Shown here piece by piece: positions 1 through 7,589 of a stretch of DNA of 11,290 nt. The notes under the pieces were generated by a model. It made no database searches. It was not told the origin of the DNA and saw only the letters and a list, made by a program, of their open reading frames with translations. The stretch is from Xanthobacteraceae bacterium (GTDB lineage Bacteria > Pseudomonadota > Alphaproteobacteria > Rhizobiales > Xanthobacteraceae): positions 1-11,290 of the forward strand of contig JASHWN010000536.1 of assembly GCA_030044035.1 (NCBI GenBank), read 5' to 3'. The stretch's first letter is position 1. Every line of letters starts with the position of its first letter. A program made the position numbers and the translations under genes.

Positions 1-852
1 ACCTGGCTGCGAGCCTGGCTGTGCAGCCTGGTGTCGGGCCGCCCCGCCGAGATCAACGATCTATCCCGGCTCGGACCATTTGCCGGCAGCCGGTCGCATT
101 TCGACGCCACGCTTGGCATCGCCAGCGTCGCGCTGTCGCGCGATCAGGAGTTCAACCTTCGCCCGCGCGTATTTGAAGTCGTCGCCGCCGAAGCCAAGCG
201 TCCGCTCTATTGCAAGACGCACGATGCCTATCAGCTGACGCCGGCGGGCAAGCCGCTGTTTCCGACCGCGGCCACGGCCGGCGCGGTCTACGTCGTGCGC
301 GATCCGCGCGCGGTAGCGGTATCGGTGGCTCATTACATCGCGGAGCCGATCGAGCCGGCGGTCGCCCACATGGACGATCGCGAGGCCCTCTCCGGCGGGT
401 CGACAACGCGGCTGTCCAATCATTTACGCCAATATCTGCTGCGCTGGAGCGACCACGTCGAATCCTGGCTCGGCGCGCCGTTTCCGGTGCATCTCGTGCG
501 CTACGAGGATATGCAGGCCGACCCGCACGCGGCCTGCGCCGCGGCCGCGGCGTTCCTCGGCCTGCCCAGCGACGCGGCAGCGATCGCGGCCGCAGTCGAG
601 GCCGCGTCATTCTCCCGGCTGCAGGCGCAGGAGCGCGCGTTCGGTTTTGTCGAAAAGCCGCGCCGCGCTGCCGCGTTCTTCCGCGAGGGCCGGGTCGACG
701 GCTGGCGCGAAGCGCTCACGGCCGAGCAGGCCGCCCGCATCGTCGCCGCGCATGGCACGGTGATGCGGCGATTGGGTTACGATCTGACGGCGTTGCCGCT
801 GACCGGCGAAGGCGAGCGAATTGTGGAGCGCGCATGTCTGCCGGGCCGGTGA
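1..852 (+). CDS. Sulfotransferase domain protein, 5' end cut by the window
   Basis: This open frame runs from the first base, so the gene starts upstream; 283 residues are visible. The first visible residues, TWLRAWL, look like the end of the PAPS 5'-phosphosulfate-binding loop (family pattern PxSGTTWLR), so only a short N-terminal piece is probably missing. A GTG at 31 is in frame but would remove this motif, so it is unlikely to be the start. At about 286-325 the segment YVVRDPRAVAVSVAHY matches the 3'-phosphate-binding motif, with its Arg and Ser. VRYEDM (about 496-513) and FFREGRVDGWREALT (about 676-720) match the conserved C-terminal part, where the family has RKGxxGDWKxxFT. The family moves sulfate from PAPS to hydroxyl or amino groups; the acceptor here is unknown. 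The gene end overlaps the next gene by 19 nt, suggesting translational coupling. Family assignment is firm; substrate is open. Confidence 0.85.
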   Translation, partial: TWLRAWLCSLVSGRPAEINDLSRLGPFAGSRSHFDATLGIASVALSRDQEFNLRPRVFEVVAAEAKRPLYCKTHDAYQLTPAGKPLFPTAATAGAVYVVRDPRAVAVSVAHYIAEPIEPAVAHMDDREALSGGSTTRLSNHLRQYLLRWSDHVESWLGAPFPVHLVRYEDMQADPHAACAAAAAFLGLPSDAAAIAAAVEAASFSRLQAQERAFGFVEKPRRAAAFFREGRVDGWREALTAEQAARIVAAHGTVMRRLGYDLTALPLTGEGERIVERACLPGR

Positions 853-3185
853 CGAAGTCCGACGCTGCGTGGCGGCTCGCCGTCCGCCCGGCGCTCATCA
901 CGCAATTTGTTCTGTACCTCGGCGGCTACGCCGCGCTGCTCGGCTGGTTCAAATCCGTCGATGTCTATCATCTGCATTTCGCCGATACCGGCGCCCTGAT
1001 CCTGGTGCACAACCTGTTTCGCATTCTGTTCGTCTTTTATCTGTTCTGGATGGTTCAGGCGGCGGGCGCCGTGCTGTTGCGCCTGATCGGCAGGCTGCGC
1101 CCGCAACAGGTCGGCATGGCCGGCTACCTCGCCGTGACGTTTTTTGCCGGAGCGGGCGTCTGGCAGGTCGTGCTCTTCGCGGTCGGCTATGCCGGCCTGC
1201 TCAACGCCCCCATCATGATCGTGCTGGCGACCCCGATGGTCGCGGCGTCATTCGGCGAAGTCCGCGCGGCAATCCCCGCATTGCACATGAGCTTGGCCCG
1301 GCTATGGCAAAGCGGCGCGCTGGCCAAAAGCCTGGTCGTGCTGCTGTTCCTTTCCTGGGCGGCGCTGCTGATCGTCAAGGGACTCTATCCCGGCAACGGC
1401 ATCTACTATTACGAACCTTATTTGCAAACTTATAAAGCGTTCCTGGTGGAGGGCAGCCTCTGGCCGCACGCCGCGTGGTGGTTTTCCTTCTATTGCCAGG
1501 GCGCCGGACTTTTCTTTCTTGGCATGCTTTTGACCGATGCGATGGCCGTTCAACTCGTGACGTTTTGTCTCGTATCCGTCGCCGGGCTGACCACGTTGCT
1601 CTTCATCCGCCATTTAACTCCACGCAGCCACTGGCCCTTGGCCGGCGCTGTGCTGTTGTTCGCCACGTTCGTGTATACGCCGGGCTGGGCCGAGTTTCGC
1701 AAGCTGCACGAGTTCAACACCGCGTTCGTCGTCGCCATCCTGTGGATGACGACGATGGCACTCGCCGCTGCCGGGCCGGCGCGCAAAATCTGGTGGTGCG
1801 CCGCGGCTTCGACATTGATCGCCGCGATCATCGCCAGCAACTACATCGGCGTCTTTCTGGGCGTGGTGTTTGCCGTTCTCGCGCTCGCTTACTTCGCTCT
1901 GGGCGAGCGCGCGCGTGCGTTCGCCTGCTTCGGGCTGGCGGCGCTTGGCGGTTTCTTGGTCGCCGATACGCTGGCGATCAATTACCTGGTCTACGGGCTG
2001 TTCAACGGCTGGGATCCGACCCTGACGCTGCTTTGGCAGTTCGCGGATGTCGAGAAAGTCTACCGGATGGGCGCCCTGCCCACGGTCGTCGACATTCTCA
2101 ATTCGGTCTCTCACAGCAACGCAGCCCGCGTACATATTGCCTGGGCCGAGTTCTTGATCCGAGCCTTGCGGTTGGAAATATTCTGGCCGCTGGTCCTCGG
2201 CGGCGGATTGGTCGCAGCGATCGCTTTGCGCGACCGCTTTTCCGACGGCAAAGCTTCCGGGCGCCACGTTCCGGATGCAGCGCTCGTTCTTAGCGTGGCG
2301 CTGGCCGTCTACGTGCTGCTCGCGCTCGTCGTGGGTCGATCGGATGCGTCCACGTTCTACCGATTTTCGAGCTTTACGGTCCCAATCGTCATCGTCGCGG
2401 GGATCGCGCTGTGGACGGCGACGCCGCGCCCGCGTGCCACTTTGCTCAGATGGTTCGCAGGGCCGGCGGGGCCGATCGCGGTTTTGCTCCTATGCGGGGC
2501 CATGCTGGTCGGCAAGACGCGGTTCGATCCCGGTGTGCCGCGGCTCGCGGTGCACGCGCTCGAATATACGATCGGAGCCATCAGCATCGATGACGCCTAC
2601 ACGCAACCGTCCGAGGGCGGTTTCACGGTGCCTTGGGCGGATATTTATCCGGGCGTGCGCGGAGTCTATGCGGTGGTCGGACCGCACACACCTGTTTTGT
2701 CGCTTAATTTCCACACGTTTTGCGAACTACCCGACTGCCGGATCATGTGGTCAGCGACATCTATTCTGGTCCCGGGCATCGAGCAGGTCCTATGGGGGAC
2801 GCCCGAAAAGGCGCGCGCAACATTGCAGAAAGCCGGCTTGGACTTTTTCCTGGTCTCGCGCGCGACGCCGCTTGCCTATGGCCCACTTCTGGCGAGTCCA
2901 CTGTTCTCGCCCGACAATATCGGCAAAATCTTCGGCGTTCGCTGGACCGACGGCGCCACCACGCTTTTGACCTGGGCCGGTCCCGCCACTTTTGCCATCG
3001 ACGAAAAATGGCTGGCCGGGTACCGCAGCCAGCTCGCCGAGTCTCGCAGCCGACTGGCGACGGCACGCGGACGGACCGATGAACTGACCGCCGTCTTCGA
3101 CCGGCTGCGGACGCTGCCGCATCCCTGGCATCCATCCGACGTGCCTCGGCGGCAAGCAGGCTGGCCCAACGTCCCGGAGCAATGA
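834..3185 (+). CDS. Polytopic membrane protein, probable GT-C-type glycosyltransferase
   Basis: The frame encodes 783 residues from the ATG at 834, which has GGAG at 825-828 five bases upstream. The frame stays open to 210, but that upstream part is out of frame over the sulfotransferase gene and is a shadow. About 14 hydrophobic segments are visible, roughly at residues 22-38, 53-72, 96-135, 165-183, 222-258, 266-283, 294-312, 322-352, 366-387, 450-466, 483-502, 514-530 and 546-561. A soluble tail of about 220 residues follows, ending in a charged, possibly coiled stretch (about 728-760). A loop after residue 184 (YYYEPYLQTYKAF) contains Glu194 and resembles the first extracytoplasmic loop of GT-C enzymes, which use lipid-linked sugars. 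No signature proves this, so a different integral membrane function is possible. The stop overlaps the next start in ATGA. The N-terminal five segments look like an extra module before the GT-C-like core. Confidence 0.6.
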   Translation: MSAGPVTKSDAAWRLAVRPALITQFVLYLGGYAALLGWFKSVDVYHLHFADTGALILVHNLFRILFVFYLFWMVQAAGAVLLRLIGRLRPQQVGMAGYLAVTFFAGAGVWQVVLFAVGYAGLLNAPIMIVLATPMVAASFGEVRAAIPALHMSLARLWQSGALAKSLVVLLFLSWAALLIVKGLYPGNGIYYYEPYLQTYKAFLVEGSLWPHAAWWFSFYCQGAGLFFLGMLLTDAMAVQLVTFCLVSVAGLTTLLFIRHLTPRSHWPLAGAVLLFATFVYTPGWAEFRKLHEFNTAFVVAILWMTTMALAAAGPARKIWWCAAASTLIAAIIASNYIGVFLGVVFAVLALAYFALGERARAFACFGLAALGGFLVADTLAINYLVYGLFNGWDPTLTLLWQFADVEKVYRMGALPTVVDILNSVSHSNAARVHIAWAEFLIRALRLEIFWPLVLGGGLVAAIALRDRFSDGKASGRHVPDAALVLSVALAVYVLLALVVGRSDASTFYRFSSFTVPIVIVAGIALWTATPRPRATLLRWFAGPAGPIAVLLLCGAMLVGKTRFDPGVPRLAVHALEYTIGAISIDDAYTQPSEGGFTVPWADIYPGVRGVYAVVGPHTPVLSLNFHTFCELPDCRIMWSATSILVPGIEQVLWGTPEKARATLQKAGLDFFLVSRATPLAYGPLLASPLFSPDNIGKIFGVRWTDGATTLLTWAGPATFAIDEKWLAGYRSQLAESRSRLATARGRTDELTAVFDRLRTLPHPWHPSDVPRRQAGWPNVPEQ

Positions 3186-3400
3186 CCGTGTCCGATTCGC
3201 CTTTGCAAAGCTTCGCGGCGCTCCTGCACGCCGATCCGGCCTTGGCGGCCGAATTGCGGCGGGCGCCGGATCAGGAGGCTTTTGTGGCCTTGCTGGTGGC
3301 GCGGGCGCGCGAGCGCGGGCTCGCGATCAGCGCGGCGGAGGTTACGGCGGCGCTCGATGCCGCCAAGCGCGCCTGGATGGTGCAGTGGCTGACCCGTTGA
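3182..3400 (+). CDS. Nif11-like small protein, possible RiPP leader or leader-only peptide
   Basis: This 72-residue protein resembles the Nif11 domain (PF07862, leader part of many RiPP precursors). It shows the pattern FAALLHADPALAAELR, then a D-x-EAFVALLVARARERG helix, then the AISAAEVTAAL segment that corresponds to 'ft.eel..al'. It ends in KRAWMVQWLTR, with two Trp. There is no Cys, no Gly-Gly or Gly-Ala cleavage site and no evident core, so it differs from lanthipeptide-type Nif11 precursors. It could be a leader-only adapter, a structural protein, or a precursor whose core is the Trp-rich tail. The ATG at 3182 overlaps the previous stop (ATGA). GGAG at 3176-3179 is only two bases from this ATG but eight from an in-frame GTG at 3188, so the start may be 3188. 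Its end overlaps the next gene by 16 nt. The Nif11 call is from recalled family pattern, without a profile search. Confidence 0.65.
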   Translation: MTVSDSPLQSFAALLHADPALAAELRRAPDQEAFVALLVARARERGLAISAAEVTAALDAAKRAWMVQWLTR

Positions 3401-4374
3401 CCATCCCCGCCGACCCGAATTGGCTGCCGATGCAAATCCTCTGGACCGCGCCGGAACCTTTGCTCGAGTGGTGCCATCTCGGCGCGACGCGTTTCACCGA
3501 TCCGTTCTTCGTGCAGACCCTCGCCGTGGCGATGCGGCATCCGTTCAACCTGTTGTTTCGCCGCACCACGCCGCTCGACGCGCTCGCCGTCCCCGACGAC
3601 CCGGAGCTGCGCCTCGCCGGCTTCATCTTTCATACGTCGCATTGCGGCTCGACCTTGGTGGCGCAGATGCTGGCGGCGCTGCCGTGCAACGTGGTGCTGT
3701 CGGAGCCGAGGCCGCTCGATCAAATCCTGCGCCTGGCGCCGCGGCTGGCGGCGCTCGCGCCCGACCGCCTGCCCCGCTGGCTCGCCGGCCTCGCCGCCGC
3801 CTTCACGCGCCGCCGCTTTGCCGAGGAGCGCGATCTGTTCGTCAAGTTCGAGGGCTGGCACGTTTTGTTGCTGCCGCTCATTCGGCGGGCGTTTCCCGAC
3901 GTGCCGTGGATTTTTCTCTACCGCGATCCACTCGAAGTGCTGACGGCGTTTGCGGAACAGTTTCCGGCCGAGATCGAACCGTCGCTGCTCGGTTTGTCGT
4001 GGCAAGAGGCACACGAGCTGTCGACCCCGCGTTACTGCGCGCTGGTGCTGGAGCGCATCTACGCGGCGGCCATCGCGCAACATCATGAGCGTGGCGGCTT
4101 GTTGATCGAGTACCGCGAATTGGCCGATGCCGTCTGCGGGCAGATGCTCGATCATTTCGGGCTGCGCTACGGAGCGGAACAGCTTACGCGCATGCGCGAG
4201 GCCGCGCGGTTCGATGCCAAGCAACCGACCAAGCTCTTTGTCGCCGACGCCGCGCAAAAACGCGCCTCGGCTGACGCGGAGGTTGCCGAACTCGCAGCGA
4301 CACGGCTCGCACCGTTCTATCGTGAGCTCGAAGCGTTGCGGCTTTTCGACAGGCCGCCGGCACCTTCAAGTTAG
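3385..4374 (+). CDS. P-loop sulfotransferase-family protein
   Basis: The frame encodes 329 residues from the GTG at 3385, inside the end of the Nif11-like gene. A TTG at 3397 and an ATG at 3430 are other in-frame starts, and no strong ribosome site settles it (only GGATGG at 3375-3380). The nucleotide-binding loop is FHTSHCGSTLVAQML at residues 82-96, the form seen in a divergent sulfotransferase family (HTSxCGSTL). LSEPRPLDQILRL (105-117) and FLYRDPLEVLTAF (177-189) follow. The latter corresponds to the 3'-phosphate-binding motif, but with Thr where classical enzymes have Ser. IEYRELAD (241-248) matches the VRYEDL position, and ARFDAKQP (274-281) is near the C-terminal PAPS-contacting region. 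It is clearly distinct from the sulfotransferase at 1-852. The position after a peptide gene suggests action on that peptide or on a shared product, which is inference. Catalysis of sulfate transfer is not proven. Confidence 0.75.
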   Translation: MADPLTIPADPNWLPMQILWTAPEPLLEWCHLGATRFTDPFFVQTLAVAMRHPFNLLFRRTTPLDALAVPDDPELRLAGFIFHTSHCGSTLVAQMLAALPCNVVLSEPRPLDQILRLAPRLAALAPDRLPRWLAGLAAAFTRRRFAEERDLFVKFEGWHVLLLPLIRRAFPDVPWIFLYRDPLEVLTAFAEQFPAEIEPSLLGLSWQEAHELSTPRYCALVLERIYAAAIAQHHERGGLLIEYRELADAVCGQMLDHFGLRYGAEQLTRMREAARFDAKQPTKLFVADAAQKRASADAEVAELAATRLAPFYRELEALRLFDRPPAPSS

Positions 4375-4377
4375 CTC

Positions 4378-4405
4378 GGCGCGCCTAAGCCGTAGCCGGC
4401 GCGCC
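4378..4405. repeat. GC-rich inverted repeat after the second sulfotransferase gene
   Basis: Two copies of the 8-bp palindrome GGCGCGCC (4378-4385 and 4398-4405) are separated by 12 nt. They can pair as a hairpin three bases after the stop of the preceding gene. Only a short run of three T follows (4408-4410), so this is a weak candidate for an intrinsic terminator or an mRNA-end hairpin. It sits directly before the promoter-like pair at 4409-4437. Confidence 0.35.
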
Positions 4406-4408
4406 CGT

Positions 4409-4437
4409 TTGGGAATCTGCCGAACATTTTGTATGAT
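4409..4437 (+). promoter_or_regulatory. Candidate sigma-70-type promoter before the kinase gene
   Basis: TTGGGA (4409-4414, four of six matches to TTGACA) and TATGAT (4432-4437, five of six matches to TATAAT) are 17 bp apart. Transcription would begin near 4444 and leave a leader of about 55 nt before the GTG at 4500. It lies in the only sizeable gap of the 1-7148 gene array, so the second block could be transcribed on its own. In a GC-rich genome such a TA-rich hexamer stands out, but chance is not excluded. Confidence 0.35.
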
Positions 4438-4499
4438 CGAGCGGCACGCAGGGACCAGCGCAAAGTCCGGCTGCGGTATTCGGGGATGAGCGAGGCACC

Positions 4500-5426
4500 G
4501 TGCATCTTTACACCATTGCGGGGCTGTCGGTCGGCAGCGACGTTGCGCTGCCGAGCCTGAATGCGGCCGGCGCCGTGCCGCGGCGGCCCGACGTTCGGAT
4601 CCGGCGCGCTGCAGTACCGCGGGCGCTCGACGGCGCCGAAGCGCTGGGCCCCAATTGGCAGATCGCCGGCCGGCGCTTCCTGCTGCGCGTGCCCAACATT
4701 GCGCGCTTCCTGCTCACCGACGGGCGCGAGATCGCGTTCGAAGCCGAGCCCGGCGTCGATGCTCCCGACATTTCGATCTTTCTCCTTGGTACCGCCTTCG
4801 GCATTTTGCTGCATCAGCGCCGACAGATCGTGCTGCATGCCAGCGCCGTGCGCGTCAACGGCAAGGCGGTGCTGTTCTGCGGTCCGTCCGGCGCCGGCAA
4901 ATCGACGCTGGCAGCGGCGCTGGCGCAGCGCGGCTATCCGGTCATGACCGACGATTTCTGCGCGGTGACGGTGACGCAAGCGAGCATCCCGATGGTGCAT
5001 CCCGGCGGCCGGCAGTTGAAATTGTGGGCGCATACCATCGAGCGCCTGCAGCTCAAGGGCCGCAGCGGCGCGCGCGTGCGCAGTCGCTCGGAGAAATTCT
5101 ATGTCGACCCCGGCCTTACCCAGGCCGATGCCCTGCCGCTCGGCGCGCTCTACGCGCTGCGTCAGACGCAACTGCCGCAGGCCGGCGCGATCGAGCGGCC
5201 GAGCGCCGCCGAGGCTGCACCCATTCTGCGTCGGGTCGCCTATCGGCCGCGGCTCGTCAGCCGGATGGGGCAACGCGTCGATTATTTTCATGCCGCGACG
5301 GCAGTCGCCAATCATGCCGGAATTTTTTATCTGAGCCGAGCACCCGACTTCGCAGCCATGCCGCGGCTCATTGCGCAACTGGAACGCCACTGGCGCGACA
5401 TTGGCGTGGCCGAACAGGCGGCTTGA
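4500..5426 (+). CDS. HPr-kinase-related kinase (HprK-like)
   Basis: The frame encodes 308 residues from the GTG at 4500, with GAGG at 4492-4495 upstream. The C-terminal half is the HPr kinase/phosphorylase-type P-loop domain. It contains LHASAV (112-117), the Walker A loop GPSGAGKST (128-136), and MTDDF (149-153), with the two Asp where HprK has its second acidic motif. HPGGRQLKLW (167-176) also fits HprK-related proteins. The N-terminal part (1-100) is a separate domain with no recognised motif. True HprK acts on Ser46 of HPr; proteins of this shorter, divergent type occur in lasso-peptide and other RiPP-like clusters, where some phosphorylate the peptide. The neighbours (Nif11-like peptide, B2 protease, nucleotidyltransferase) favour that role over sugar-transport control, because no PTS gene is nearby. 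The next gene starts 38 nt downstream. The kinase fold is confident; the substrate is inferred. Confidence 0.87.
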   Translation: MHLYTIAGLSVGSDVALPSLNAAGAVPRRPDVRIRRAAVPRALDGAEALGPNWQIAGRRFLLRVPNIARFLLTDGREIAFEAEPGVDAPDISIFLLGTAFGILLHQRRQIVLHASAVRVNGKAVLFCGPSGAGKSTLAAALAQRGYPVMTDDFCAVTVTQASIPMVHPGGRQLKLWAHTIERLQLKGRSGARVRSRSEKFYVDPGLTQADALPLGALYALRQTQLPQAGAIERPSAAEAAPILRRVAYRPRLVSRMGQRVDYFHAATAVANHAGIFYLSRAPDFAAMPRLIAQLERHWRDIGVAEQAA

Positions 5427-5464
5427 GGCAAGCGCGGTTCGGCCCAATGCAGCGGTGAAGTGTA

Positions 5465-5938
5465 ATGTCGGCACGCTCGATCGGCGCTGGGCTCATGAGA
5501 TTGGGGCAACTCGGCAAAAGCCGCCGCGCGCTCCTCTTCGAGGCGGCGGCGTGGCTGCTGCTGGCGCGCCTCAGTCTGCTCGTGGTCTCGTTTCCGCGAC
5601 TAGCTCGGCATCTTGGCACGGTGGTTACGCCGACCGACCCGCGCGCCCGGCACGCGGCAGCCGGCAATTCGCCCGACGCCGCGCGCCTCGCCGCCGAGAT
5701 CGGATGGGCAGTGACGCGTGCCGCGCGGCACGTGCCGTTCAAGGCCGTGTGCCTGCCGCAGGCCATGGCCGCACGTCTCATGCTGCGGCGCCGCGGCGTC
5801 GACAGCGTGCTGCATTTCGGCGCCAGGATCGGCTACGCCAAACCAATCGATGCCCATGCCTGGCTCGATGCGGCCGGCGTCCAAGTCACCGGTTACCCGG
5901 TCGCCGATGCATTTACCGAAATCGCCTGCTTTGTCTGA
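5465..5938 (+). CDS. Lasso-peptide B2-type transglutaminase-like protease
   Basis: The frame encodes 157 residues from the ATG at 5465 (GAAG at 5457-5460); an in-frame ATG at 5495 is an alternative start. The family is the lasso-peptide B2 protein, a cysteine protease of transglutaminase fold that removes the leader from a precursor. The N-terminus has the usual hydrophobic, basic segment (RRALLFEAAAWLLLARLSLL, 20-39). The catalytic Cys is Cys96 in AVCLPQAMAARLMLRRRG. The catalytic His is His131 in DAHAWLD, 35 residues later, which is the normal spacing. The third member, Asp, is not obvious: the region after His reads GYPVADAF, with Asp148 as the best candidate. In lasso clusters B2 works with a separate PqqD-like B1 protein; none is visible here. 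It lies between the kinase and nucleotidyltransferase genes and probably shares their transcript. The family call is strong; its target peptide is unknown. Confidence 0.85.
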   Translation: MSARSIGAGLMRLGQLGKSRRALLFEAAAWLLLARLSLLVVSFPRLARHLGTVVTPTDPRARHAAAGNSPDAARLAAEIGWAVTRAARHVPFKAVCLPQAMAARLMLRRRGVDSVLHFGARIGYAKPIDAHAWLDAAGVQVTGYPVADAFTEIACFV

Positions 5939-5969
5939 TGATGCATCCGCGCTTGCGCCCGCAATCCGC

Positions 5970-7148
5970 ATGAGCGGACGAACCCTTTCCTCCGACTTTC
6001 TGCTCGCCGCCGCCTGTTGCCGTTGGCCGGCATCGCCGGCGCGCGACGCCGCGATTGGTGCCGCCGCCGCGCAGGTGGGCGACTGGGAGGCTTTTCTCCG
6101 CGTCATCGAGCGTCACCGCGTCGTCGGCCTCGTCCACGATGCGTTGCCCGCGGCGGGACCGATCGTGCCGGCCGCAGTCAGCGCCAAGCTTGCCGCGCGC
6201 CTGAAAAATATCGCGCAGCGCAATCGGCTCCTGCTCGAAGAGCTGTCGTTGCTGCAGCGCGCGTTCGCCGCGGCAGGGATCGAATTTCTGGTTCTCAAGG
6301 GCCCGGCTCTCGCGCAAATCGCCTATGGCGCAGCGACCTGCAAACAGACCCGGGACATCGATCTGTTGGTGGCGCCGGATTGCGCGCGCGCGGCGCTGCA
6401 AGTGCTCGAACGCCACGGTTACGCGCCGCTGCCGCCGGCCGTCGGCCTGAACGACATGCAATTCGCCGCCTTGCTGCGCTACTGCAGGGAAATCGACCTG
6501 GCGCGGCCCGCCAGCAAGCTGCCGGTCGAGCTGCAATGGCGCGCCGCCGACAATCCGACGCTGCTCGACGGCATCGATGCCCGTTCGCCGGCGCAGCGCG
6601 TGACGCTGGCCGACGGCTTGGTCGTCCGCACCTTGGCGGCCGACGATCTGTTCGCCTATTTGTGCGTACACGGCGCCTATCATTCCTGGTCGCGGCTCAA
6701 ATGGCTCGCTGATCTCAACGCCATGCTGCATACCACCGGCGCTGACGTGACATCGCGCTATCGTCACGCGCAACGCGTCGGCGCCGGCCTGTGCGCCGGA
6801 CAGGCGCTGCTGCTTTGCCGTCGCTTATTCGGTTTGCCACTGCCGGACGCGCTCGCGCGCGAGCTTGAAACGAACCGAAGAACGTCGAAGCTGCTACAAA
6901 TCGCGTTACGCGCGATGACCGAGCGGCCAGCCGCTCACAAGCGTATGCGGGCGGTGTCCACCAACGTCCATACGCAATTTCTGTTCGGTGAAGGCTGGCG
7001 CTTCTTCGCAGCGCAGTGCCGCGCGGTCGCGGTCGGCATGCAAGACATTATGACGGTAGCGCTGCCGCCGGCCCTGTATTTTCTTTATCCGCTACTGCGG
7101 CTGCCACTGTGGCTGTTGCGCCACTTGCGCGCCGGTCTCAGGCGCTAG
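5970..7148 (+). CDS. Nucleotidyltransferase-fold protein (NTP_transf_5 type)
   Basis: The frame encodes 392 residues from the ATG at 5970. An in-frame ATG at 5907 would add 21 residues and overlap the previous gene by 32 nt, and neither has a clear ribosome site. The pattern fits the uncharacterised nucleotidyltransferase family PF14907: IEFLVLKGPALAQ (104-116), then TRDIDLLV (127-134), with the Asp pair of the polymerase-beta-like fold at Asp129 and Asp131. VELQW (186-190) and HGAYHSWSRLKWLADL (234-249) follow. The family is found beside HprK-like kinases and B2 proteases in lasso-peptide and related clusters, where some members are thought to nucleotidylate the peptide. The C-terminus ends in a hydrophobic, basic stretch (about 360-390, ALYFLYPLLRLPLWLL) that may contact the membrane. 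It is the last gene of the array; no clear terminator follows. Reaction and substrate are inferred from context only. Confidence 0.85.
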   Translation: MSGRTLSSDFLLAAACCRWPASPARDAAIGAAAAQVGDWEAFLRVIERHRVVGLVHDALPAAGPIVPAAVSAKLAARLKNIAQRNRLLLEELSLLQRAFAAAGIEFLVLKGPALAQIAYGAATCKQTRDIDLLVAPDCARAALQVLERHGYAPLPPAVGLNDMQFAALLRYCREIDLARPASKLPVELQWRAADNPTLLDGIDARSPAQRVTLADGLVVRTLAADDLFAYLCVHGAYHSWSRLKWLADLNAMLHTTGADVTSRYRHAQRVGAGLCAGQALLLCRRLFGLPLPDALARELETNRRTSKLLQIALRAMTERPAAHKRMRAVSTNVHTQFLFGEGWRFFAAQCRAVAVGMQDIMTVALPPALYFLYPLLRLPLWLLRHLRAGLRR

Positions 7149-7331: not shown

Positions 7332-7589
7332 ATGACCCCGGACGAGAAAAGCGCGTGGCTGCGCAAGCTTGACGCCGAATGTCCCTATCAGGTGGTGCTG
7401 CCGCGACGGCAGCTGACCGACGACAGCGCGATCCTGGACTTCTTGATCAAATATGTCGGCGTGTTCGACATGTACGTCGAAGACGATTACGCGGCCTTCG
7501 TGCGCTATTGCTTTGCCGACCCGCTGGACGCCGAAATTTTCCGCGCCCGCTTCGAGCCGAAGGACGAGCGGTTGAAGCTCGCGGGGTGA
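7332..7589 (+). CDS. Small hypothetical protein, probably SOS-regulated
   Basis: The frame encodes 85 residues from the ATG at 7332, with GAGG at 7322-7325 at good spacing. I do not recognise the family. The protein is soluble, acidic in the middle and has one Cys near the N-terminus (Cys17) and one at Cys60. The pattern suggests a small alpha/beta fold: a strand (YQVVLP), a helix (DSAILDFLIKYVG), a strand-helix (FDMYVEDDYAAFVRYCF) and a final 'FADPLDAEIFRARF' segment. That last pattern resembles other short alphaproteobacterial hypothetical proteins. A LexA box in the promoter suggests a role in the DNA-damage response. The gene converges on ligD, but no shared control can be seen. It is separate from the array ending at 7148 by a 183-nt gap and its own promoter. 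Coding status is well supported by start, ribosome site and codon use. Confidence 0.8.
   Translation: MTPDEKSAWLRKLDAECPYQVVLPRRQLTDDSAILDFLIKYVGVFDMYVEDDYAAFVRYCFADPLDAEIFRARFEPKDERLKLAG

Follow-up and report, generated by a model that had tools for sequence, protein, structure and literature searches.

The locus studied here raises two questions: whether a set of genes that pairs a Nif11-like open reading frame (ORF) with two sulfotransferases belongs to a lasso peptide cluster, and what the Nif11-like protein does in it. The window, 11,290 nt from a Xanthobacteraceae bacterium (contig JASHWN010000536.1 of assembly GCA_030044035.1), is the entire contig C485 of a host genome, G000, that is 68% complete. 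The seven plus-strand genes at 1..7148 are real and were named about right in a preliminary description, as Pfam and NCBI model matches bear out. That description read them as a lasso trio (kinase, protease, nucleotidyltransferase) with extras, possibly in a pathway not lasso in type. The unusual, non-standard combination holds up, while a non-lasso pathway is unlikely. We think it probable that the locus is a kinase-type lasso cluster, which is a known kind, located beside the genes X85 and LigD, and that the Nif11-like protein is the partner of one of the sulfotransferases (ST2) in a module linked to tail-collar proteins.

The B2 leader protease (5465..5938, plus strand) is transglutaminase-like with its Cys and His present, and passes the lasso leader protease model (NF033537, 87.5 bits against a cut-off of 33). 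The HprK-related kinase, of lasso-tailoring type (4500..5426, plus strand), scores 52 bits with TIGR04352, under its cut-off of 200, and its His 113, LHASAV at 112, P-loop GPSGAGKS at 128, and TDD at 150 match by eye the His-Lys-Asp-Asp motif described for lasso kinases, which phosphorylate a C-terminal Ser (PMC9266682). The third gene of the trio encodes an NTP_transf_5 nucleotidyltransferase-like protein (5970..7148, plus strand; PF14907, 163.8 bits). No B1 gene, cyclase, or lasso precursor (leader motif, Thr at -2, acidic residue at 7-9) was found in the window; this had been pointed out before and is true of the window, but it is weak as an absence, because the window is a whole contig and these genes may simply lie past its end.

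The right side of the locus can be placed on the chromosome. X85 (7332..7589, plus strand), an ORF that marks the site and lies outside the cluster, is a core gene present in 17/20 genomes of the genus, and 3' of it come a minus-strand LigD gene and the beginning of DXS. The cluster-free order is the small exonuclease VII subunit (Exonuc_VII_S), X85, LigD, DXS (named by Pfam in L128; L125 and L133 look alike), and no cluster family was found in any of 13 fetched X85 loci, six of which are contigs shorter than 8 kb. Cluster genes adjoin X85 in three genomes: G000, G009 (L085), and G018 (L122). In G009, which is of the same genus and has its cluster at the same site, we found ST1 (the other sulfotransferase), HPRK, a JmjC-type protein, a cyclase, a precursor-like ORF, a 2-oxoglutarate oxygenase, an unnamed ORF, B2, B1, Nif11-ST2, a hydroxylase, three collar genes, GNAT, and DUF6916. 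Since the contents differ among the three genomes, the X85 site looks, from gene order, like a variable island. With cyclase and B1 at the same site in G009, we rejected the reading of the locus as not lasso. The preliminary description would have given up its reading for a standard lasso cluster. The expected cyclase and B1 are indeed in G009, but judging from gene content the cluster is not a standard one, as its relatives are accompanied by genes for collar proteins, GNAT, DUF6916, and a hydroxylase. In the same-genus cluster L016, a radical SAM/SPASM protein at 1709-3223 lies between the cyclase and B2.

The relatives of individual proteins point in the same direction. The compared loci were picked via ST2, collar, cyclase, or X85 searches, and "nearest" is valid among these fetched loci only. 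The nine nearest relatives of HPRK (36-62% identity), of B2 (55-66%), and of ST1 (40-64%) are all in cyclase-containing loci, most of which also have B1 and many a lasso-type precursor-like ORF. ST1 itself (1..852, plus strand; Sulfotransfer_1, PF00685, E 1.5e-17) is 5' truncated, apparently beginning within the 5' donor loop and keeping the 3' motif VRDPRAVAVS; its closest kin, at 62-64%, are in L085 (G009) and L166 (G018), each next to HPRK and a cyclase gene. Relatives of the NTP_transf_5 protein were found at 36% in L144 and at 31% beside X85 in G018. L144 and L208 each contain a single run of HPRK, ST1, B2, Nif11-ST2, B1, cyclase, three collars, GNAT, DUF6916, and NTP_transf_5, and the best NCBI models for the L144 cyclase and B1 are the lasso cyclase and lasso PqqD, respectively. 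The fetched loci also supplied the sequences for the family models, and family counts were made over all ORFs of at least 45 aa, since the simple gene caller placed some start sites wrongly at certain GC-rich loci. Because of the G009 site and the cyclase clusters around the nearest HprK, B2, and ST1 kin, the window locus is likely, on sequence evidence, to be a lasso-type cluster of the kinase type, cut by the contig end.

Precursor-like ORFs accompany these cyclases. By eye, a W..P-type ORF was seen near the cyclase in 10/11 distinct contigs, every one Ser-terminated, with L092 the contig that lacks it. A fixed search found the full precursor signature at 14/36 cyclase entries (a list in which some loci recur and some entries are ordinary asparagine synthetases), all 14 ending in Ser, compared to a background of 35/1153 windows, 1 of them ending in Ser. 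The predicted core residue 1 is Gly in only 2/14 of these ORFs. Two further clusters were noted. L167 in G001 is a second cluster with cyclase, B2, B1, HPRK, and a W..P-type ORF, no collars on the contig, and a neighboring ORF that presumably resembles an ABC transporter; G001 also holds a collar-type cluster (L101). L148, the same place as in Tistrella mobilis KA081020-065 (NC_017958.1), is a lasso-like cluster on a 1.1-Mb replicon with an ST2-like gene and two precursor-like ORFs, and without Nif11 or collar.

The Nif11-like ORF (3182..3400, plus strand, 72 aa) matches PF07862 with 25.4 bits, fails the TIGR03798 precursor model (16 against 32.3), and ends 2 residues past the conserved domain, leaving it without a core region. 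Across 11 separate Nif11 forms, 0-2 residues follow the domain, the end of which was set by a model built from such Nif11 sequences. The ORF overlaps ST2 by 16 bases. A separate Nif11 ORF before ST2 also occurs in Acidobacteriota, Verrucomicrobiota, one Chloroflexota metagenome-assembled genome, and L087 of the window's own family, and it overlaps the first possible start of ST2 by 4-28 bases in 10/10 pairs measured (11 seen). Within the family, Nif11 forms the N terminus of ST2 in 11/14 Nif11-positive genomes, the window and L087 having it separate and L021 being unchecked. The fusion is also found in three Sphingomonas loci, and the ST2 tree implies that it was gained or lost at least twice; both Pfam domains are present in 2 of 120 listed database proteins (P0079 and P0122). 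In L008 (Verrucomicrobiota) and L143 (an alphaproteobacterium), Nif11 is instead the C-terminal part of an aspartyl-hydroxylase-like protein, with a Pfam match below cut-off in the former and none in the latter. The AlphaFold prediction for the fused P0079 (pLDDT 94.2, pTM 0.93) is consistent with a docked Nif11 domain.

Overall, Nif11 adjoins ST2 in 29/57 ST2 places, a count that can miss cases: L217, and probably L216 and L218, were scored Nif11-negative yet have a Nif11-like stretch preceding ST2. The pairing had been called unusual, and it proves to be conserved as well, fused or adjoining in other genomes. Given the lack of a core, the overlap with ST2, the fusions to ST2 and hydroxylase, and the co-occurrence with collar genes described below, the Nif11-like ORF appears more likely to be an enzyme partner of ST2 than a precursor, and the earlier idea that it is itself the modified peptide fits less well. 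The fusions in particular give the partner reading good support at the sequence level. Phage and plasmid carriers of Nif11-ST2 were considered and rejected, with no phage match at 1e-5 and three plasmid records at 1e-20, none with 80% coverage. One locus, L017, has two divergent Nif11-ST2 pairs, the second with Asp replacing the conserved Glu of ST2.

ST2 (3385..4374, plus strand) is assigned as a tyrosylprotein sulfotransferase (TPST)-like enzyme from 30 named relatives, residue counts, and the predicted fold of P0079. It has at least 1382 relatives (7997 candidates scored). The sulfotransferase fold was seen in a prediction made for the fused relative P0079 rather than for the window copy. 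The nearest solved folds are those of TPST1/2, from which these proteins differ in being bacterial, in having only 15-19% identity, and in having a Nif11 partner. An ST2 profile searched against PDB sequences matched only two designed helical proteins. Counted over the 120 best database hits and 16 alignment rows, window included, the 5' loop Arg is present in 135/136 ST2, the 3' Ser in 132/133, and a Glu, at what we take to be the TPST catalytic base position, in 135/136. In several g34 genomes (L086, L088, L091, L093, L094, L095, and L096), an ORF of ~605 aa that presumably resembles an ABC-type ATPase adjoins ST2.

Nif11-ST2 is also associated with tail-collar genes. A collar gene lies within 9 kb of 22/29 Nif11-positive ST2 places and 1/28 Nif11-negative places (L092); a Fisher test on these 57 places ignores relatedness. 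Of the seven positive places without a collar, six (the window included) have a contig end no more than 3.5 kb away; the seventh, L020, truly lacks one. Where both flanks are at least 5 kb, a collar is present in 19/20 places, alongside GNAT in 17, DUF6916 in 17, aspartyl hydroxylase (ASPH) in 11, and cyclase in 9. The link was weaker in family f64, sampled later, where a collar was nearby in 3/8 Nif11-positive places and 3/7 with full flanks; 22/27 full-flank places have one when both samples are pooled. Anywhere in the genome, a collar gene was found in 31/33 Nif11-positive genomes examined (a tally leaving out the genomes of L009, L011, and L014), compared to a base rate of 65/216 genomes, which applies to the window's family only.

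Tandem runs of at least three tail-collar genes followed by GNAT are also common in the family by themselves, mostly without lasso genes. In a sample of 36 such loci from 32 genomes (L171-L206), with loci already known via ST2 left out, GNAT was present in 30, DUF6916 in 10, and cyclase together with HPRK in 10; B2 was probably under-counted. Since GNAT is in 30/36 and the lasso pair in 10/36, the collar-GNAT set is its own unit, and as far as gene neighborhoods show, lasso genes and Nif11-ST2 are repeatedly added to it. From the neighborhood, we would guess that collar proteins are the substrate of the Nif11-ST2 module. Large proteins with Ig-like, PKD, RTX, DUF11, P-domain, or DUF4347 domains were also seen near Nif11-ST2 in L008, L010, L012, L013, L014, L017, and L090.

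Taken together, the window is probably the right-hand part of a cluster like those of paeninodin and pseudomycoidin, and we infer that the cyclase, B1, and precursor lie beyond the contig end with the rest of the left half. The HprK-like kinase would phosphorylate the precursor at its C-terminal Ser, B1/B2 would remove the leader, and the cyclase would close the ring, with the product possibly decorated by the NTP_transf_5 protein (by analogy to PsmN) and ST1. Nif11 would be a small helical protein that partners ST2 and, where present, the aspartyl-hydroxylase-like enzyme. This module usually travels with tail-collar proteins, and its likeliest substrate would be some protein or peptide encoded in the cluster itself, with the collar proteins the best candidate. 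The sequence shows the fusions, overlaps, synteny, co-occurrence, and predicted fold; all catalysis and substrates, like the left half, are deduced from these. A bolder reading, which we rate as somewhat less likely than not, is that Nif11, known as a leader peptide, serves here as an integral subunit for docking or activation in both the TPST-like sulfotransferase and the aspartyl-hydroxylase-like enzyme. The module would be common to alphaproteobacteria, Acidobacteriota, Verrucomicrobiota, and Chloroflexota, would modify collars, and would in alphaproteobacteria have been joined with a phosphorylated lasso peptide.

Several observations weigh against these readings. The comparison of relatives is no unbiased survey, and the L144 proteins score under the lasso cut-offs (cyclase 306.6 against 525, B1 58.9 against 80). 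A cyclase is near five Nif11-negative ST2 places, so ST2 kin go with lasso genes without Nif11 as well. Many collar loci have no lasso genes, 4/7 full-flank Nif11-ST2 places in f64 have no nearby collar, and the Nif11-ST2 genome G1082 has no collar gene at all. The TPST likeness is a fold match only, and polyketide synthase sulfotransferase domains score nearly as high. The window ST2 keeps the Glu but lacks both the Arg and the Ser expected of a PAPS (3'-phosphoadenosine 5'-phosphosulfate) sulfotransferase: its 5' loop reads SHCGSTL and its 3' site YRDPLEVLTA, the sole His among 136 and the sole Ala among 133. Its branch in the tree is long, as expected of a gene copy that is decaying or has changed. 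With two near-invariant donor-site residues lost, the activity of the window ST2 is doubtful, and the enzyme may be inactive or changed in function. Neither a collar gene nor, elsewhere on other contigs, a cyclase of this type was found in the 68%-complete G000 (B1 was not searched there). The changed ST2 and these absences would suit a non-working remnant that has lost its cyclase, B1, and collars. We consider this unlikely, since the six complete ORFs of the locus are open, the HprK, B2, and NTP_transf_5 motifs are intact, and the incomplete genome is represented here by a contig that ends inside ST1.

That the Nif11-like ORF is a true precursor or leader of a ribosomally synthesized and post-translationally modified peptide (RiPP), with a residue of the short C-terminal tail sulfated by ST2 and with fusions that join precursor to enzyme, is in our estimate improbable. 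Nif11 domains are known leaders (PMC2887384), the adjacency to ST2 is frequent, and the L009 relative passes the N11P model TIGR03798 (36.5 against 32.3). However, the separate forms stop at the domain and have no variable core, the ST2 fusions continue after it with a linker and an enzyme of 320 residues, it is attached to a hydroxylase in two cases, and Xanthobacteraceae clusters mostly hold another ORF with the lasso precursor signature. Least probable of all is a sulfated and phosphorylated glycoconjugate pathway with no lasso relation, built around the polytopic membrane protein (834..3185, plus strand, 783 aa). The predicted fold of this protein is GT-C-like, as had been proposed, and sulfotransferases and a nucleotidyltransferase-like gene are at hand. 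With relatives (E of 1e-40 or below) in just 2/296 family genomes, it was rejected as the core of the locus; the other copy lies in a different neighborhood, and B2 and HprK are both lasso-type proteins.

Compared to kinase-tailored lasso clusters (paeninodin PadeK, ThcoK, SyanK, and pseudomycoidin PsmK/PsmN), the locus shares B2, the His-Lys-Asp-Asp kinase, and the nucleotidyltransferase-like gene, and its related clusters also have Ser-terminated precursor-like ORFs; the relatives add the collar triplet, GNAT, DUF6916, hydroxylase, and Nif11-ST2. PsmN, annotated as a nucleotidyltransferase, installs hexoses (PMC9266682). A sulfotransferase and nucleotidyltransferase beside lasso genes have been published, with a putative sulfotransferase at Firmicutes lasso clusters (PMC8498205). 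A Pontixanthobacter/Allopontixanthobacter table lists, uncommented in the excerpt available, lasso B2, nucleotidyltransferase, sulfotransferase, aspartyl beta-hydroxylase, a hypothetical protein, sulfotransferase, PqqD, an asparagine synthase-related protein, and glycosyltransferase among numbers 1738-1748 (PMC10040529), and from these nearly consecutive numbers the genes would be neighbors. In Acaryochloris, AM1_3686-3690 include three collar genes and an acetyltransferase gene, which appear together in a list of strongly light-regulated genes, and the excerpt mentions no Nif11-ST2 or lasso link (PMC11633204). Among the literature matches listed, the Nif11-ST2/collar/lasso association is not described, and DUF6916 had no match.

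As one relative passes the NCBI model, pipelines may label such Nif11 ORFs as RiPP precursors and prompt a hunt for a nonexistent peptide. If Nif11 is an enzyme partner, this would be a second use of the leader fold and would point to a cross-phylum, uncharacterized system of possible protein sulfation and hydroxylation tied to tail-collar proteins. Should it be a docking subunit, leaders would be domains that either the enzyme or the substrate can carry, for which man-made leader-enzyme fusions are a parallel. The locus also provides a defined type of cluster for studying the role of phosphorylated lasso peptides.
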